DNA of 25,525 nt from IMG/VR virus record IMGVR_UViG_3300042564_002465, positions 1 to 25,525 of that record. One strand, given 5' to 3'. Positions 1-7,710 of the stretch are shown here, piece after piece (the stretch's first letter is position 1; every line of letters begins with the position of its first letter). Made by a program: the position numbers and the translations under genes. The stretch comes from a virus. Below the pieces are notes generated by a model. That model saw nothing but the letters and a program-made list of their open reading frames with translations. It did not search any database and was not told the origin of the DNA.

Positions 1-317
1 AACCTTTTATAAATTTTCGAATAAACCTCAAAGTTAGTAATATTAAAATTTTTATCTTCCCAGTTTTGAGTTATTTCAAACTTGCCCTCTGCTACTAAAT
101 TTTCAACATCATCTCTTCCAAATTTTTCAAGGCAAAAGTTTTTTAAATTTCCTAAATATTCTATACGCCAATCTTCTTCACCGATACTGTCTATAAGACT
201 AAAAATATCTTCTATTTCTTTTTCAGAAATAAAATTTTTTACTAATATAACATTGTCATCTATTTTTTTTATTTCAAAGTTATTTTCAATTAGTTCTTTT
301 TCTAAAAAAGCACTCAT
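1..317 (-). CDS. 2OG-Fe(II) oxygenase-like protein, N-terminal part
   Basis: This minus-strand frame is open from the ATG at 317 to the window edge, so about 105 N-terminal residues are visible. The segment around residues 22-45 (VILVKNFISEKEIEDIFSLI) matches the opening strand and helix of the neighbouring oxygenases (compare VVYENFLTAEESAKIILALE in the next gene). The catalytic HxD...H part would lie outside the window. Its start is 1 nt beyond the stop of the upstream gene, so it belongs to the same operon. The oxygenase assignment rests on N-terminal resemblance and context only. Confidence 0.55.
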   Translation of the reverse strand, partial: MSAFLEKELIENNFEIKKIDDNVILVKNFISEKEIEDIFSLIDSIGEEDWRIEYLGNLKNFCLEKFGRDDVENLVAEGKFEITQNWEDKNFNITNFEVYSKIYKR

Positions 318-318
318 A

Positions 319-1068
319 TTATTTTAACTCTTCTATGCTATATTTATTTCCACTTTCGTCTAACTTATATCCTTCTTTAAGAAGATTTTGCCATTCTTCT
401 TTTTCAATTTTTTGAGCAGCTCTAACTTTGTCCATCTCTTCTTTCCATGCAGCCCTTAGTTCTTCTGGATAATCTGATTCTTCTCTATCATCCCAAAAAG
501 ACCCCAGTGTATACCTAATTCCTTTAGTTATTATACTTACTTCATGCATGTTGTTGTGGCTACCATTAAATGCTGCAAGCATTCCAACTTTTGGAGATAG
601 CTCAACATTTCTATCTGGGAACTTTAATAGACCACCTTCAAAATTGTCATTAAGATATAGAAATGCTGCATATCTACTTCTTTCAAATGCTCCGAAATTT
701 CCATGCTCATCTGTATTATCCGAATGAATACGAGCAAATGCTCCTGGCTCCCATTTTTGTGTGTGATATCCTATTTGAGAAATTTTTTCTTCGGGGGTAT
801 TATGAACAGAAGCTACAGCTTTAATTATGCCATTTTTAATATCTGAAAATACAGTTGGTGTTAATCCAACCTCTTCTAATTCTGGGTCATTGTCTTGTGG
901 TAATACTGAAGAATATGATTCATAAAAAGATATAGGGGTCCATGAAATCTTTTGATTTTCTGCTTGTTTTTCTAATGCTAGAATAATTTTAGCAGACTCT
1001 TCGGCAGTTAAAAAATTTTCATAAACAACTAGGTCTTCATTGATTCTTTTTTTATCATTTAGATTCAT
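319..1068 (-). CDS. Fe(II)/2-oxoglutarate-dependent oxygenase (prolyl 4-hydroxylase-like)
   Basis: A 249-residue protein with the double-stranded beta-helix signature of the 2OG-Fe(II) oxygenase superfamily. Visible metal ligands are H115 and D117 (HSD) and distal H175. R185 in the motif KGIRYTLGSFW is the expected 2-oxoglutarate carboxylate ligand. FLYLNDNFEGGLLKFP is the strand pair typical of P4H-like enzymes. Members hydroxylate protein side chains or small molecules using O2 and 2-oxoglutarate; the substrate here is unknown. The start overlaps the upstream gene by 4 nt (ATGA), indicating translational coupling. A charged C-terminal extension of about 50 residues follows the core. Confidence 0.88.
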   Translation of the reverse strand: MNLNDKKRINEDLVVYENFLTAEESAKIILALEKQAENQKISWTPISFYESYSSVLPQDNDPELEEVGLTPTVFSDIKNGIIKAVASVHNTPEEKISQIGYHTQKWEPGAFARIHSDNTDEHGNFGAFERSRYAAFLYLNDNFEGGLLKFPDRNVELSPKVGMLAAFNGSHNNMHEVSIITKGIRYTLGSFWDDREESDYPEELRAAWKEEMDKVRAAQKIEKEEWQNLLKEGYKLDESGNKYSIEELK

Positions 1069-1736
1069 GGCTTTTTATCTCCAGTATGTTCTGTAATTTC
1101 CCAAAAAAATGGACACGTAAATCTTATGCCACTTTTTATTTCAGTTACTCCATGAATATATTGCATATCTCCTGGGAAAAAATAAGCAGCTCCAACTTTG
1201 GGTTTAAACTGAACCCCTTGGTTTGGAAAATATAATTCGCCACCCTCGTAGTCTTCGTTTAAATAAAATAAACTTGAAAGGTCGTAGTTTGGAAAATCAT
1301 TTGGCAATCCAGCATCTGGCCCCTCATGTAGCTCTTTATCTGCGTGGGGATGTTGATATTGTCCTGGAAGCCATTTTACTATTGTTGCTCCAGTTGGAAT
1401 AACTTTAACTTTATAAAAATCTTCAATAATTGGCTCTAGTCTTTTAAATAACCCTGTGATAACTGGTGCTATTTTAGGATCATTTTTATTTAAACTTGGA
1501 GTTGTGGCAACTCTATCTTTCCAGTAATCTGAATCATATATCACTGTGCCATTTTCATTAACATGGCTTTGTGTTACATCCCAAATTGTTATAGATTTTG
1601 CAGCATTTTCTAAAAACTCTATTTCATCTTGAGTCATAAAATTTTCTAACTCAACAATCATTTCTTTCCCACTACCAAACCAGCCAGAAGGTGTTTTAGA
1701 GGGTTTTCTTGTTACAACATTATCTAAGTCAGCCAT
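1065..1736 (-). CDS. Fe(II)/2-oxoglutarate-dependent oxygenase (prolyl 4-hydroxylase-like)
   Basis: A 223-residue enzyme of the same superfamily. The iron ligands are H131 and D133 (HAD) and H195; R205 (GIRFTCPFFW) should bind 2-oxoglutarate. FYLNEDYEGGELYFPNQG is the family's diagnostic core strand. With the next gene downstream it forms the arginine-type pair in this cluster, unlike the lysine-type enzymes at 2467 and 3939. An extended -10 (TGG then TATAAT) ends exactly 6 nt before its ATG, inside the 3' end of the upstream gene, so it may also have its own leaderless transcript. Substrate unknown. Confidence 0.88.
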   Translation of the reverse strand: MADLDNVVTRKPSKTPSGWFGSGKEMIVELENFMTQDEIEFLENAAKSITIWDVTQSHVNENGTVIYDSDYWKDRVATTPSLNKNDPKIAPVITGLFKRLEPIIEDFYKVKVIPTGATIVKWLPGQYQHPHADKELHEGPDAGLPNDFPNYDLSSLFYLNEDYEGGELYFPNQGVQFKPKVGAAYFFPGDMQYIHGVTEIKSGIRFTCPFFWEITEHTGDKKP

Positions 1737-1738
1737 AA

Positions 1739-2467
1739 TTAAATTATACCACCGCTTCTATTTTTAGTATTATCTTGAACAAAAAGCTTTAAAACTTTTG
1801 CTTCATGTTTTCCAGTGGTTTCACCTTTTTCATTTACAGCATCTCTATACCAATCTGTCCATTGTCCTTGAGAATTTATTTTTTGTGCTCCTTCTCCGTA
1901 AGATTTAATATTTTTTTGTCTTATATCCCCTGGATCGGAAAAATCAACAATATTAATCGATGTATTATTCATTTCAGTAAGTGATATTGGAATAATTTGT
2001 GCAATAGGAGTATTAGCTTTTATTAAAATATTTTTATTTGGAGATTTAGCTTTTATGGCTATTGGAAAATCTGTATCAAGCCAAGAAGTGCTAATCAAAG
2101 ATGACACAACTTCAAAATCATCATTAAAATAATTAATAGGATTTATTGTTAACATGCTAATATTTTCATCAGTTCTAAACACTAGGCCAGTTACTATGCT
2201 TACTGTTGCCTGACCTCTTCCAGTATAAAGAAAATCCTTTTTACTAAGGATATTAATATTTTCAGAACTTGTATCATTTATTCCATTCCAGACAAATTCA
2301 ATGTCTTGTGTGCAAGACAAACTCCAGCCAACCATATTGGCTTGAGTAACTGGAAAACACCTATATGCATGTTTTTCTGGAGTAAGGTCCATCCAATCTC
2401 TTTTTATAGACATGGGAGATATATTGATTACAGATTCTGTTTTTTTTTCAACTGATATGTTTAGCAT
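1739..2467 (-). CDS. DUF6065-like protein
   Basis: A 242-residue protein that I match, with moderate confidence and from memory, to the DUF6065 family. The recognisable parts are RDWMDLTPEKHAYRCFPVTQ (about 24-43), the following ANMVGW, the FVWNG strand, and a central NPINYFNDDFEV...SSLISTSWLDTDFP...NTPIAQIIPIS core. No catalytic residues are known to me. It shares the same order of motifs with the gene at 3155, so the two look like diverged paralogues. Its start overlaps the upstream oxygenase stop (TAATG). Placement between oxygenases suggests a shared substrate or target, which is inference. Confidence 0.6.
   Translation of the reverse strand: MLNISVEKKTESVINISPMSIKRDWMDLTPEKHAYRCFPVTQANMVGWSLSCTQDIEFVWNGINDTSSENINILSKKDFLYTGRGQATVSIVTGLVFRTDENISMLTINPINYFNDDFEVVSSLISTSWLDTDFPIAIKAKSPNKNILIKANTPIAQIIPISLTEMNNTSINIVDFSDPGDIRQKNIKSYGEGAQKINSQGQWTDWYRDAVNEKGETTGKHEAKVLKLFVQDNTKNRSGGII
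1743..1751 (-). promoter_or_regulatory. Extended -10 promoter for a leaderless transcript of the 1736 oxygenase gene
   Basis: On the minus strand TGG-TATAAT (1751 to 1743) is followed by exactly 6 nt and then the ATG at 1736. It lies within the last codons of the upstream gene. No ribosome binding site can fit in between, so translation would start on a leaderless mRNA. Confidence 0.6.
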
Positions 2468-3144
2468 TAGTCTTCGTCTGCACGATACATTTCTGGAGTA
2501 TGAAACTTTTTGTTGTAATCTAACATAGTGACAATAGAGTATTTTGTTCCAGAATGAACTGGCATTGCCCTGTGTGGATACATGAAATTAGAAGGAAATA
2601 TAAACAAGTCTCCTGCTTCTGGTTTAATATTTAAATTTTGTAGTCTAAAGTATAACTCTCCACCTTCATAATCATCGTTTACATAGGCTACCAATGAAAC
2701 TGTGCAGTTATATGAAAAACCGTGGTCGTGATGTTCTTGGAAGTGTTGTCCTGGACCATATTTAATAAAGTTAAAGGCTTCCCAATACTTTAAATCCATA
2801 ATGTTGTGATGTGCTCTATAGTCTTCAACTGCTTGAAACTGTGCATCATAAACATCTTGCCACAGTGCTTGAAGAGCTGCAGAATCGGGATCTAAATCTT
2901 GTTGTATATCAGTTTTTTTAAACTTAAAATCTGAACAGTCCCTGTATAATGGCATAAGCTCTTTATAACCTACATATGCTGGATTCCAGTGGTATTTCTT
3001 TCCATCTTTTGATAATTCTCCAATTGGTGCAATTTCTCCTAAAACATTTTCTAGTCTATTAATAACATCAAATTCTTTTTTTATAACATTTTTATATAAA
3101 AAAATTCCATTACCTAGATCTTGCTTTTCTGTCCAAGTTTGCAT
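2467..3144 (-). CDS. Fe(II)/2-oxoglutarate-dependent oxygenase, lysine type
   Basis: A 225-residue 2OG-Fe(II) oxygenase. The probable ligands are H138 and D140 (within HHDHG) and distal H191; K201 (SGTKYSIV) replaces the usual arginine as the 2-oxoglutarate salt-bridge residue, as in vertebrate prolyl 4-hydroxylases. YVNDDYEGGELYF marks the core. It is clearly more similar to the enzyme at 3939 than to the arginine-type pair: both share DC.DFK, a long helical insert, YYEAFNF or YWEAFNF, and YNCTVS. A good ribosome binding site (AAGGGG) precedes the ATG. Substrate unknown. Confidence 0.88.
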   Translation of the reverse strand: MQTWTEKQDLGNGIFLYKNVIKKEFDVINRLENVLGEIAPIGELSKDGKKYHWNPAYVGYKELMPLYRDCSDFKFKKTDIQQDLDPDSAALQALWQDVYDAQFQAVEDYRAHHNIMDLKYWEAFNFIKYGPGQHFQEHHDHGFSYNCTVSLVAYVNDDYEGGELYFRLQNLNIKPEAGDLFIFPSNFMYPHRAMPVHSGTKYSIVTMLDYNKKFHTPEMYRADED

Positions 3145-3154
3145 TTTATTCCCC

Positions 3155-3946
3155 TTATTTATAGTCTCTTTTAGACCAAACTTTATTTTTATAAATACCG
3201 CCGTCTGGTTGACGATAAAACTTCATGTTCTCTACCATTTTATCATAAATTTCTTTTTCTTGTTGAATGTGTATTTCTTGTTGCCAACCTTCTCTTTTAA
3301 AAGGCAAGATTTGCATGTATGGTGTTCCACCAGGAATAGTTCCTTCCCATCCTTCTGGAATAAAAAATGGAAACGTTCCTAATAAATTAACCTTATCCAC
3401 ATCTACAACACCCGTTGTATTTAAAAATGGAAGATCAAATCTATTCATTGGAGACATAAAAATAGCACTATATCCTTCTGGTAACTCTATAGCCCAATCT
3501 GGATACCAAGCAAAATGATCTTTATAAAATCCATAAGGATGTTCAAATTGTGGCATTGGAGGTCTTTTTCCACAAAAATCTTGATACCTTGGATCTAATA
3601 TTTTAACATCAATAGTTCCACCATCATTTTTAAAAAAAGTAATATCACAAGGTGTTTTCAATATATAGCCACTTGTAAATCCATCTAGTATAGCTGGACA
3701 TGCTTTCCAAGTTGGTATCTTTCCATAATCATTTTCTGTTCCCTCTTTTGGAAATGGACATATTGTTGATGGAGCATCATAGTATTCATCTGTAATTGGG
3801 TTTTTAGCAAACCTATCAGCTTCTTTATACCATTTTGGAATAGCATCTTGAGTTGGACTTGGAGCCGACATACTTTCTTTATTTAGCCATGGCCTATAAG
3901 ATATAAATTTGATTAAATTTAAAGATATATCAAATTTTTTAACCAT
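3155..3946 (-). CDS. DUF6065-like protein (paralogue of the 1739 gene)
   Basis: A 263-residue protein with PKWYKE near residue 39, then IPTWKACPAILDGFTSGYIL, a central WAIELPEGYSAIFMSPMNRF, then VVDVDKVNLLGTFPFF and GGTPYMQILPFKREGW. This resembles uncharacterised proteins seen in many aquatic phages. The order 'P-N-x-F ... VD or D-x-D ... FPF ... G-T-P-x-x-Q-I-x-P' repeats in the gene at 1739. The start overlaps the upstream oxygenase by 8 nt. It sits between two lysine-type oxygenases, so a functional link to them is likely but unproven. Confidence 0.6.
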   Translation of the reverse strand: MVKKFDISLNLIKFISYRPWLNKESMSAPSPTQDAIPKWYKEADRFAKNPITDEYYDAPSTICPFPKEGTENDYGKIPTWKACPAILDGFTSGYILKTPCDITFFKNDGGTIDVKILDPRYQDFCGKRPPMPQFEHPYGFYKDHFAWYPDWAIELPEGYSAIFMSPMNRFDLPFLNTTGVVDVDKVNLLGTFPFFIPEGWEGTIPGGTPYMQILPFKREGWQQEIHIQQEKEIYDKMVENMKFYRQPDGGIYKNKVWSKRDYK

Positions 3947-4655
3947 GTTGTTTGTGACCTAATTCATTAATATCTGTCATAACTACAACACAATACTTTG
4001 TTCCAGATTTTATTGGAAGGGATGCATGTTCATAGATATAGTTTGATGGACAAAGAACTATGTCTCCAACCTTTGGTTTATATACAAGGTTGTCTAACCT
4101 TGGAAATTTTAACTCTCCACCTTCATAGTCATCATTAATATATACTACAGCTGATACGGTGCAATTATATGCTGGTCCATGGTCTGCATGAATGTTGAAG
4201 TGAGATCCCTTTCCTTCATACTTAACAAAATTAAATGCTTCATAGTATGTTACATTTATTCCCCAGTATGCAGCATAGTCATCTACGCAGTATTTTAACT
4301 TTTCGTATATCTCTTGATGAAGATCTATAAGCTCTGCATTGTTTTCATTTCTTGGACCTAAATTTTCTTGTTTATACTTAAAGTCTACACAATCCCTTGC
4401 TTTTTTAATTGGAATTGTAGAGTTTGTTACCTGGGCTTCTGACCAATTGTATTCTTTGCCTTGACTCAAATTTGATTCTAAAGTGTTTATATATTTTTTA
4501 GAATCTTCTAATGAAAATACATTTTGATAAACATTAACACCTAATGCTAGATTTTCAACTAATATACCATTGTCTAAAGACTTTTTATTTACTCTATTAC
4601 TTGATGTTTCAGACCTGTCTTTTGTAAACCATTGATTTGAATTTTCATCATTCAT
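3939..4655 (-). CDS. Fe(II)/2-oxoglutarate-dependent oxygenase, lysine type
   Basis: A 238-residue enzyme; I chose the ATG at 4655 rather than one 30 nt upstream because AAGGGGG lies at proper spacing before it and an extended -10 lies just upstream. Ligands in this numbering are H156 and D158 (HAD) and H210; K220 (SGTKYCVVV) is the 2-oxoglutarate ligand. YINDDYEGGELKFPRL is the core motif. The first 30 residues are polar and probably disordered. It is the first gene of the oxygenase/DUF6065 operon. Close similarity to the 2467 enzyme suggests duplication of an oxygenase plus DUF6065 two-gene unit. Confidence 0.88.
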   Translation of the reverse strand: MNDENSNQWFTKDRSETSSNRVNKKSLDNGILVENLALGVNVYQNVFSLEDSKKYINTLESNLSQGKEYNWSEAQVTNSTIPIKKARDCVDFKYKQENLGPRNENNAELIDLHQEIYEKLKYCVDDYAAYWGINVTYYEAFNFVKYEGKGSHFNIHADHGPAYNCTVSAVVYINDDYEGGELKFPRLDNLVYKPKVGDIVLCPSNYIYEHASLPIKSGTKYCVVVMTDINELGHKQHG

Positions 4656-4673
4656 AAATGCCCCCTTTATATA

Positions 4674-4682
4674 ATCATACCA
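4674..4682 (-). promoter_or_regulatory. Extended -10 promoter of the oxygenase operon
   Basis: On the minus strand TGG-TATGAT reads 4682 to 4674, followed 18 nt later by the ATG at 4655 with an AAGGGGG Shine-Dalgarno in between. The TGG-TATNAT form matches the extended -10 upstream of several other minus-strand genes here (1743, 6976, 8214, 9437). Confidence 0.55.
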
Positions 4683-4706
4683 CAAACCTAAAATTTAATA
4701 AAGTTT

Positions 4707-5171
4707 TTAGAATCCAAAGAATGGAGGGAATTGAGGTGGGAAGAATGGGAAGAATGGTGGGAAGAATGGGAAGAACGGTGGGAAGAACGGGAAGAACGGT
4801 GGGAAGAATGGGAAGAACGGGAAGAATGGTGGGGCAACGGTAGCTGGAGTAACAGAATTAGAAGCAGAAGAAGCAATGGATGTTGCAATAACACTATTAT
4901 CAGAATTTCTTGTTTGTGCTGTTACGGTAAATGTATATGATGTTCCATTTGCTAATCCAGAAACAGTGATTGGTGATGTTGCAGAAGATCCTGTAATTGA
5001 ACTTGGGGTAGATGTTGCTATATATAAATTATTTGTTGATGGTTTTCCTAAATATGTTGGTTCTGTAAATGGAACACTTGCAGATGTATCTCCTGCACTT
5101 GCAGTTCCTATAATTGGTGCTGTTGGTTGACGTCCGTCAGAAGATGCTGACACCCCTGGAATTATTGGCAC
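4707..5171 (-). CDS. FnIII-domain protein with a Pro/Phe-only C-terminal repeat
   Basis: A 154-residue protein. I place the start at the GTG at 5171 (TAGTG overlap with the upstream stop); a TTG at 5201 is possible. Residues about 16-110 form one fibronectin type III domain, with the hallmark GLANGTSYTFTVTA. Residues 114-154 consist almost wholly of proline and phenylalanine, with four copies of PPFFPFF, one extra PFF, one Q and one terminal G. In DNA this is a 21-bp tandem repeat. FnIII domains are common on phage virion surfaces. The hydrophobic tail could be an adhesive or cell-envelope contact tip; that is inference. Confidence 0.75.
   Translation of the reverse strand: MPIIPGVSASSDGRQPTAPIIGTASAGDTSASVPFTEPTYLGKPSTNNLYIATSTPSSITGSSATSPITVSGLANGTSYTFTVTAQTRNSDNSVIATSIASSASNSVTPATVAPPFFPFFPFFPPFFPFFPPFFPFFPPFFPFFPPQFPPFFGF
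4712..4832 (-). repeat. 21-bp tandem repeat encoding PPFFPFF
   Basis: Purine-rich repeats on the plus strand (units close to GGTGGGAAGAATGGGAAGAA) encode the Pro/Phe tail on the minus strand. Units differ only at AAT versus AAC positions, implying recent expansion or contraction. Confidence 0.85.
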
Positions 5172-5959
5172 TATGCAACCAAATCTCCAATAAGAACCCA
5201 AGTATTTTCTGCACGTTTAATTAATGTAGCAGATGACCATTGCGCTCTTAACTTTAAACCAGGAGTTGCATTTATAGTTACCCCGCTAGTTGCTACTACA
5301 GTTGTTTGTCCAACTCCAGTTTGTAAAATATTAATTTGAGAGCCAATTGGATACGCTACTGATGAATTTAATGGAACAGTTAAGTTGTTAGCAGAAGCAT
5401 TACTTATTTCCACTAACTTATCTTTATCTGTTAATACTAATGTATATGATGCAGCTTGGGCATTTGTAACTAATGTTGATGGAGCAAAGTCTATTGCTGC
5501 CGTTGCATTTCCTACTTGAATCTTTTTATTTGTTGTATCCCAAGAAATTCTTGCATCTGTTGTAGAAGATGTTGTAGATAATGTTAGGTTTGGAGACAAT
5601 ATAGAATCTGACCATTCAAGACCTGTTGCGGTGGCACTATTAGTAGTTAAGATTCTTCCATTTGCGCCTGCGGTTAATATAAGTGGTGTATCATTTGCAG
5701 ATGCGCTAAGAAGATCTCCTTTAGCATTAAAATCAGCTTTTGCAACTGCTGCAGAAATATCAACGTTATCTATTTGTTCTTGAAGATCATTAATTGTATA
5801 TGCAATAGATGGGTTTATTAGGTTTGCAGTATTTGTTTCTGCAGTATCAAAAGTATATGACCCATAGTGATAGGCACGTAGTGCTGCTTGAATATCAGCG
5901 GCATCTGTATACCCTGGAATTTTTGTTGGAACCAGGGTTCCAATACTCTCAACTGCCAT
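5171..5959 (-). CDS. Phage tail-fibre-type structural protein
   Basis: A 262-residue protein starting at the ATG at 5959, which has an AGAGGTG ribosome binding site and an extended -10 upstream. Residues about 80-116 carry the segment GDLLSASANDTPLILTAG followed by a conserved GLEW, a recurrent module in actinophage tail-fibre and appendage proteins. Residues 53-68 (SIAYTINDLQEQIDNV) look like a short trimerising coiled coil. The C-terminal half is rich in beta-prone Ser/Thr/Val/Asn sequence. The N-terminal GTLVPTKIPGYTDAADIQ resembles tail-attachment modules. It probably contributes to the host-contact apparatus. Confidence 0.65.
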   Translation of the reverse strand: MAVESIGTLVPTKIPGYTDAADIQAALRAYHYGSYTFDTAETNTANLINPSIAYTINDLQEQIDNVDISAAVAKADFNAKGDLLSASANDTPLILTAGANGRILTTNSATATGLEWSDSILSPNLTLSTTSSTTDARISWDTTNKKIQVGNATAAIDFAPSTLVTNAQAASYTLVLTDKDKLVEISNASANNLTVPLNSSVAYPIGSQINILQTGVGQTTVVATSGVTINATPGLKLRAQWSSATLIKRAENTWVLIGDLVA

Positions 5960-5977
5960 CAAATCACCTCTTTAGAA

Positions 5978-6984: not shown

Positions 6985-7710
6985 TTAGGAAACTGATATA
7001 TATATTCCTTTTAGCATAACAGTTCCTTCGTTGTCGGACCTAACTTGTAGTATACCACCAAAAGCCTTAACGTCTTTATTTTTAACAAAGATAGTTTGAC
7101 AAAAAGAAAAGTCATAAGAATATTGATATTTTAAATTTCCTAGATACCCCACTACAGAACTTTCTTCATCTACAGAAAATGTTCTAATCCATAGTTCTGT
7201 ATTATTATTATAGGTTTCTATTTCTAGATCATACCTAATATCAACTTTGGCCCCTAACTGAAATGCCCTAAGATTAATCCTTTTTGCTACTTCATTTAAA
7301 AGGGATACAGATTTATTTGGAAGATATTTTTCAACACTTTGTTCTTTATCTATATCTAAAAAAACAGATACCCATCCATCATCTCCTCTTTCTGGACCAA
7401 TCTTTATTTTGTTATTATTTTTATTTTTATAATAAGCCCATCCTGGATATTGTCCAGATGCACTATCGTATCCTTCTGCCCCCTTACCTGGCTCTCCACG
7501 CTCACCCTTTGGTCCTTCGGGTCCTTGTTTTCCAGGATCGCCCTTATCTCCCTTTGGTCCCTGAATTCCTTGTGGCCCAATAGGTCCTATATCGCCACGT
7601 TCACCTTGAATTCCTGGAACAGCAACATATTCTGTATTTACTACCTCTTTTACGGTTTCTGAATATTTTTTCTTTTTTGAAACATCTGGAAAGTCCATGC
7701 TTTTAGCCAT
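6985..7710 (-). CDS. Collagen-like phage appendage protein
   Basis: A 241-residue protein. Residues 33-77 are about 15 consecutive Gly-X-Y triplets (GIQ, GER, GDI, GPI, GPQ and so on), which should form a short trimeric collagen helix. After a Tyr/Gly-rich link (GYDSASGQYPGWAYYKNKNN) comes a C-terminal domain of about 150 residues that looks like a trimeric head (VSVFLDIDKE...TMLK-type strands). Collagen-like segments are common in phage tail fibres and act as trimeric stalks. No convincing ribosome binding site precedes the ATG, so translation may depend on coupling to the small upstream ORF. Confidence 0.75.
   Translation of the reverse strand: MAKSMDFPDVSKKKKYSETVKEVVNTEYVAVPGIQGERGDIGPIGPQGIQGPKGDKGDPGKQGPEGPKGERGEPGKGAEGYDSASGQYPGWAYYKNKNNNKIKIGPERGDDGWVSVFLDIDKEQSVEKYLPNKSVSLLNEVAKRINLRAFQLGAKVDIRYDLEIETYNNNTELWIRTFSVDEESSVVGYLGNLKYQYSYDFSFCQTIFVKNKDVKAFGGILQVRSDNEGTVMLKGIYISVS

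Follow-up and report, generated by a model that had tools for sequence, protein, structure and literature searches.

What purpose do prolyl-4-hydroxylases (P4Hs) serve in viruses? Among the auxiliary genes of aquatic viruses, those for P4Hs are abundant, and according to a survey of the Baltic Sea viral use of P4H "remains cryptic" (PMC9301287). A chlorovirus P4H is carried by the virus particle and is active on peptides that contain proline, and hydroxyproline was sought in chlorovirus virion proteins and not found (PMC7019647). The window analyzed here, a stretch of 25,525 nucleotides (IMG/VR record IMGVR_UViG_3300042564_002465, positions 1 to 25,525), offers a concrete candidate substrate: a protein ending in an array of proline and phenylalanine (the P/F array), encoded next door to a P4H-like enzyme. 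If the enzyme modifies the array, the question of what such viral enzymes are for would be answered.

The array gene and its place in the tail region

The gene lies on the minus strand at 4707–5171 and encodes 154 residues, beginning with a GTG at 5171 that overlaps the TAG stop codon of the upstream fiber gene by one base (TAGTG). In close relatives (L002 and L006, '...CIMPIIPG') an ATG replaces the GTG at the matching start, the GTG-type context '...CIVPIIPG' being common to the window, L001, and L005. The frame is open, and because these relatives have ATG at that start, the gene limits given in the first-pass annotation are right. We considered a frameshift that would fuse the FnIII frame to the fiber, as the frame is also open upstream; it is not our default reading because the relatives' ATG sits exactly at the overlap and truly fused versions exist separately.

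The protein has two parts. An FnIII domain (4841–5130, minus strand, limits approximate) scores 23.5 bits (E = 6.8e-5) against PF00041, for which the curated cut-off is 25, and relatives exceed that cut-off (39 bits in L079, 45 bits in L066). AlphaFold2 models this part as an all-beta domain with pLDDT mostly >90, which Foldseek matches to phage FnIII proteins (E = 1e-11), while the array is given no structure (pLDDT about 56–67); structure prediction, proposed at first pass, was thus informative for the domain and not for the tail. The array, which with its stop codon occupies 4707–4832 (minus strand), reads PPFFPFFPFFPPFFPFFPPFFPFFPPFFPFFPPQFPPFFGF: 41 residues comprising 22 F, 17 P, 1 Q, and 1 G. 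What had been described as a Pro/Phe-only tail of 41 residues is therefore P/F at 39 of them, with two exceptions, and its single glycine leaves no Gly-X-Y repeat. Tandem Repeats Finder places a 21-bp repeat of 4.1 copies (95% match) at 4735–4820 on the same strand.

The array is not a matter of chance: a protein scan of IMG/VR returned 143 candidate stretches encoding a relative, and of the 79 loci kept and read, nearly all retain it. Hundreds of uncultured viral contigs contain P/F arrays, and a DNA pattern for FFPFFPPFFPFF found at least 120 stretches in viral contigs. The same 12-residue pattern had zero matches in bacterial and archaeal genomes totaling 257 Gb, and a nine-residue pattern had 25 genome matches with one real array among them (L216), within a phage-type FnIII gene. 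The 5-kb contig that holds this array is assigned to a Chitinophagaceae MAG and is probably phage or misbinned, and we thus set aside a prokaryotic origin. Among 50,697 phage records, BLAST found no match to the FnIII-P/F protein or to a longer two-FnIII relative, in a search that masks the array, so that arrays in other contexts could escape it. Our search of the open-access literature turned up no description of such arrays.

The gene upstream (5171–5962, minus strand) encodes a tail-fiber protein whose last ∼115 residues match minor tail proteins of Gordonia phages. P/F arrays adjoin tail-fiber proteins or are fused to them: in L179 one chain unites a P/F array and P/T linkers with a relative of the 5171–5962 protein (34% identity, E = 6e-28), and L166 looks by eye like the same fusion. 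Both gene order and fusion thus associate the array with the tail fiber, and from these sequence comparisons we consider it likely that the FnIII-P/F protein is a part of the tail. A close described arrangement is that of gp37-gp38 of Gordonia phage JKSyngboy, in which a fiber C-terminal domain is directly succeeded by a gene that overlaps it and is labeled minor tail protein; gp38, however, has no P/F array in its sequence, and no oxygenase is annotated in the Gordonia phage stretch examined. An actinobacterial host is suggested because a GP88 homologue resembles mycobacteriophage proteins (about 53% identity).

The neighboring oxygenase

The gene directly downstream (3939–4685, minus strand) encodes a 2OG-Fe(II) oxygenase that scores 41.8 bits against PF13640 (cut-off 27, E = 2e-10). 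Its start lies 22–51 bp downstream of the array gene; the listed TTG at 4685 is probably not genuine, as the ATG at 4655 fits the relatives. The nearest solved relatives by sequence are the Bacillus anthracis P4H and, more weakly, collagen lysyl hydroxylases, and the nearest folds are prolyl hydroxylases (BaP4H, PBCV-1 vCPH, and human C-P4H-II; E about 1e-7, from a model of middling confidence with pLDDT 73). The hallmark of the P4Hs, an HxD...H iron triad followed, ten residues beyond the distal histidine, by a basic residue for 2OG, is present as H166-x-D168, H220, and K230, which are invariant in alignment A2, and an HxD...H...K/R motif occurs in 153 of 155 array-linked enzymes. By sequence, motif, and predicted fold, then, the enzyme is prolyl-4-hydroxylase-like, much as the first-pass annotation had called it. 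Its matches among the 50,697 phage records searched by BLAST are distant only, at under 60% identity.

This enzyme is the first of four PF13640 oxygenase genes in a 4.7-kb minus-strand cluster (window positions 1–4685), the second, a profile match, lying at 2467–3144, the third at 1065–1736, and the fourth at 319–1068; a possible fifth at 3–317, seen by eye, is cut by the window edge. Interspersed are genes for a phrog_7084 protein (3155–3946) and a DUF6065 protein (1739–2467), both on the minus strand and both conserved neighbors (in 60 and 57 of 72 P/F loci, respectively), which from their conservation may share a pathway with the oxygenases. Because there are several oxygenases per phage, other substrates are likely as well.

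Linkage of array and enzyme

Because a P4H-like gene almost always adjoins the array, modification of the repeat by the enzyme is suggested. The link between array and hydroxylase drawn at first pass from a single locus was borne out in loci picked by the oxygenase alone: among 52, an array lay no more than 1.5 kb upstream in 48 and somewhere in the locus in every one, these being the closest relatives, of one clade, with at least 1.5 kb of upstream sequence, and the seven oxygenase-picked loci without an array each have <1 kb of it. In three locus sets chosen by genes other than the oxygenase, array genes had an oxygenase no more than 1.5 kb downstream at rates of 82, 72, and 79%, as compared to 44, 27, and 17% for other ORFs, and had one upstream in 0% of cases in each set. 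Whole contigs behave similarly. The oxygenase family was present in 16 of 20 contigs with arrays, the other four being fragments of 13–26 kb, and in 3 of 17 contigs selected because the fiber or FnIII gene had no array nearby; a later pattern search found arrays elsewhere in two of these 17, both among the three oxygenase carriers. When the contigs are pooled, the oxygenase is present in 18 of 22 with arrays versus 1 of 15 without (p = 7e-6, which assumes independence of loci that are related).

When a distant oxygenase was used as the query, full-length relatives of at least 42% identity were mostly near arrays or P-x-F variants, and those below 40% identity almost never were. On a tree of the fiber domain, two to three independent pairs differ in both traits; every one of them goes the expected way and none the opposite way, too few for significance. 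Proteins with other proline-rich ends (PT, PPP, PPSFGPSF) at the array-protein position do have an oxygenase nearby. One group (L320–L325) is an exception, carrying oxygenases and a glycine-rich protein and no array. On balance, we consider it probable that array and oxygenase are functionally coupled, and the first-pass suggestion that prolines of the tail could be hydroxylated gains real support.

The array could instead be an unmodified hydrophobic tip that adheres or contacts membranes, with the oxygenases traveling alongside in a late cluster and acting elsewhere, e.g., on a host protein. Arrays often terminate their proteins and are extremely hydrophobic in composition, as such a tip would be, and a host target is possible because binding of EF-Tu has been described for bacterial P4Hs, according to the titles of 5v7y and 4iw3. 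However, where glycine-tailed FnIII or sister proteins occupy the array-protein position, an oxygenase was nearby in 0 of 6 cases, and contigs with related fibers carry array and oxygenase together or neither. We regard an unmodified tip as unlikely, also because of the ordered structure to which the position of tyrosine in the repeat points (see below).

The window itself contains a competing candidate substrate, a collagen-like fiber protein with GXY repeats (6985–7710, minus strand), and the collagen lysyl hydroxylases among the weaker sequence matches would be in keeping with a collagen hydroxylase acting there and not on the P/F array. Among 262 oxygenase loci of at least 6 kb, however, an array occurs in 242 and a collagen-like ORF in 58, a count in which many loci were chosen for arrays and farther collagen genes would be missed. 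Collagen as the sole substrate is weakened by this, and we hold that reading to be improbable.

Selection on the repeat

A neutral C-terminal expansion, produced by replication slippage of a simple DNA repeat, would account for a repeat whose length varies between near-identical loci. The repeat does vary: array lengths differ in 15 of 34 locus pairs with flanks at least 95% identical, in steps of whole units, the pairs sharing members and short-read assembly collapse of repeats possibly contributing. In several pairs the flanks are identical and the lengths are not (84, 96, and 108 residues in L345, L353, and L351, respectively). The first-pass expectation that the 21-bp repeat can change length therefore held, subject to that possible contribution from assembly.

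The content of the repeat is another matter. Across the family the unit is P or PP, then F or Y, then F, with runs of proline one or two long in 4,618 of 4,645 cases (234 distinct arrays). We made a simple count of how codons depart from the commonest P and F codons of their array: 69% of these departures were synonymous, as compared to the about 21% that selection-free change would give; a change duplicated along with its repeat unit enters more than once, and linkers inside some long arrays swell the non-synonymous side. Tyrosine, present in 85 of 214 distinct arrays, occupied the first aromatic position 282 times and the second 0 times, despite the codons that form it being equally mutable at both. 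Arrays also stay in frame, with further domains behind them. Neutral slippage is rejected by the codon and tyrosine-position tests, and we assign it very little probability. By these counts the arrays are under strong selection at the protein level, and because of the synonymous excess together with the confinement of tyrosine to the first aromatic position, the pattern points to a defined structure. The first-pass view of an extremely hydrophobic tail stands as to composition; a merely greasy one is weakened by so strict a unit grammar.

Proposed function and comparison with known systems

The best explanation that we can offer, in which our confidence is about evenly balanced, is that the array bears hydroxyproline and serves the tail-fiber complex as a distal stalk or tip. 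The FnIII-P/F protein would be a component of a tail-fiber adhesin, translated directly after the fiber protein from the overlapping start codon, and would consist of a short N-terminal anchor, the FnIII domain, and, at the far end, a stalk or tip built from P(1–2)-[F/Y]-F units. The neighboring P4H-like enzyme would hydroxylate prolines of the array, a step for which we see the case as roughly equal on either side. Hydroxylation would stiffen the array into an extended polyproline-type rod that is soluble instead of insoluble; changes in repeat number would tune the length of the rod, and in relatives the rod would bear exchangeable tips. It is from the sequences that we infer the presence of the protein in the virion, its hydroxylation, its rod shape, and its contact with the host. 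A broader proposal we put forward tentatively, at a little under even confidence: viral structural repeats would gain a new class in the P/F arrays, which a dedicated phage prolyl hydroxylase would modify to give a length-variable adhesive fiber with hydroxyproline and exchangeable tips. If so, this strict two-residue repeat, found in phages and almost nowhere else in the genome collection searched, would be a protein material of an unusual kind, and it would supply the substrate missing for the P4H genes of aquatic viromes, where they are classed as auxiliary metabolic genes.

One close parallel is the pairing of collagen with P4H (in animals, and with PBCV-1 vCPH and the Bacillus anthracis P4H), which likewise joins a proline-rich repeat protein to a P4H-like enzyme with the iron triad HxD...H and a lysine ten residues on. 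Unlike collagen, the P/F unit, P(1–2)[F/Y]F, has no glycine, its modification is predicted, and the array and oxygenase genes are adjacent within the tail region of a phage. Plant hydroxyproline-rich glycoproteins (extensins) are built of proline-rich extended repeats, and the P/F repeats are proline-rich and expected to be extended in the polyproline manner; they differ from extensins in having no Ser or sugar sites. A glycosylated hydroxyproline was considered and set aside, as the window's glycosyltransferase occurs in only 3 of 72 P/F loci. In the collagen-like and glycine-rich tail-fiber proteins of phages, too, a fiber-associated protein has a low-complexity repeat distally, and in some relatives glycine-rich ends occupy the array position; the P/F composition and the linked oxygenase set the arrays apart. 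Finally, FnIII proteins of uncultured Caudovirales in BFVD (A0A6J5MR53 and others) belong to the same FnIII family, with best identities of 46–54%, and are annotated as FnIII only.

Variation within the family

The array is found with varied partners on both sides. It is preceded by one to several FnIII domains, by a short charged N-terminus alone (L095, L140), by Pro/Thr-rich linkers (L147, L166, L179), or by an unrelated N-terminus (the L311 group); in some proteins it is C-terminal, and elsewhere it is followed by Cys-rich tips, Hint/intein-like domains, a short 'SSERFKHSI' end, or more FnIII. Because of this variety the P/F array is, on sequence grounds, a movable stalk-like module.

Several of these arrangements deserve description. 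Short Cys-rich tips behind arrays (L139, L099, L178, and others; e.g., GCTNCYKACWSCSCPSCCGSCAY) are many and diverse in sequence and look like exchangeable knobs. Hint/intein-like domains lie behind arrays in L023, L053, L066, L079, and others, with matches under the cut-offs in three of them, to PF14890 in L079 (E = 2e-5) and weakly to PF13403 and PF07591 in L066 and L053 (Intein_splicing, Hint_2, and PT-HINT); such domains might cut or ligate the fiber protein. A second, non-FnIII family with PPYFPPFF arrays is encoded upstream of the fiber gene in L311, L313, L318, L326, L333, and L340. Two long fiber-like proteins (L049, 1560–5246; L195, 6708–9920) carry repeated WSAWSxC...RTRTC segments before the array, which by eye resemble thrombospondin type 1 repeats, Pfam having given fn3 only.
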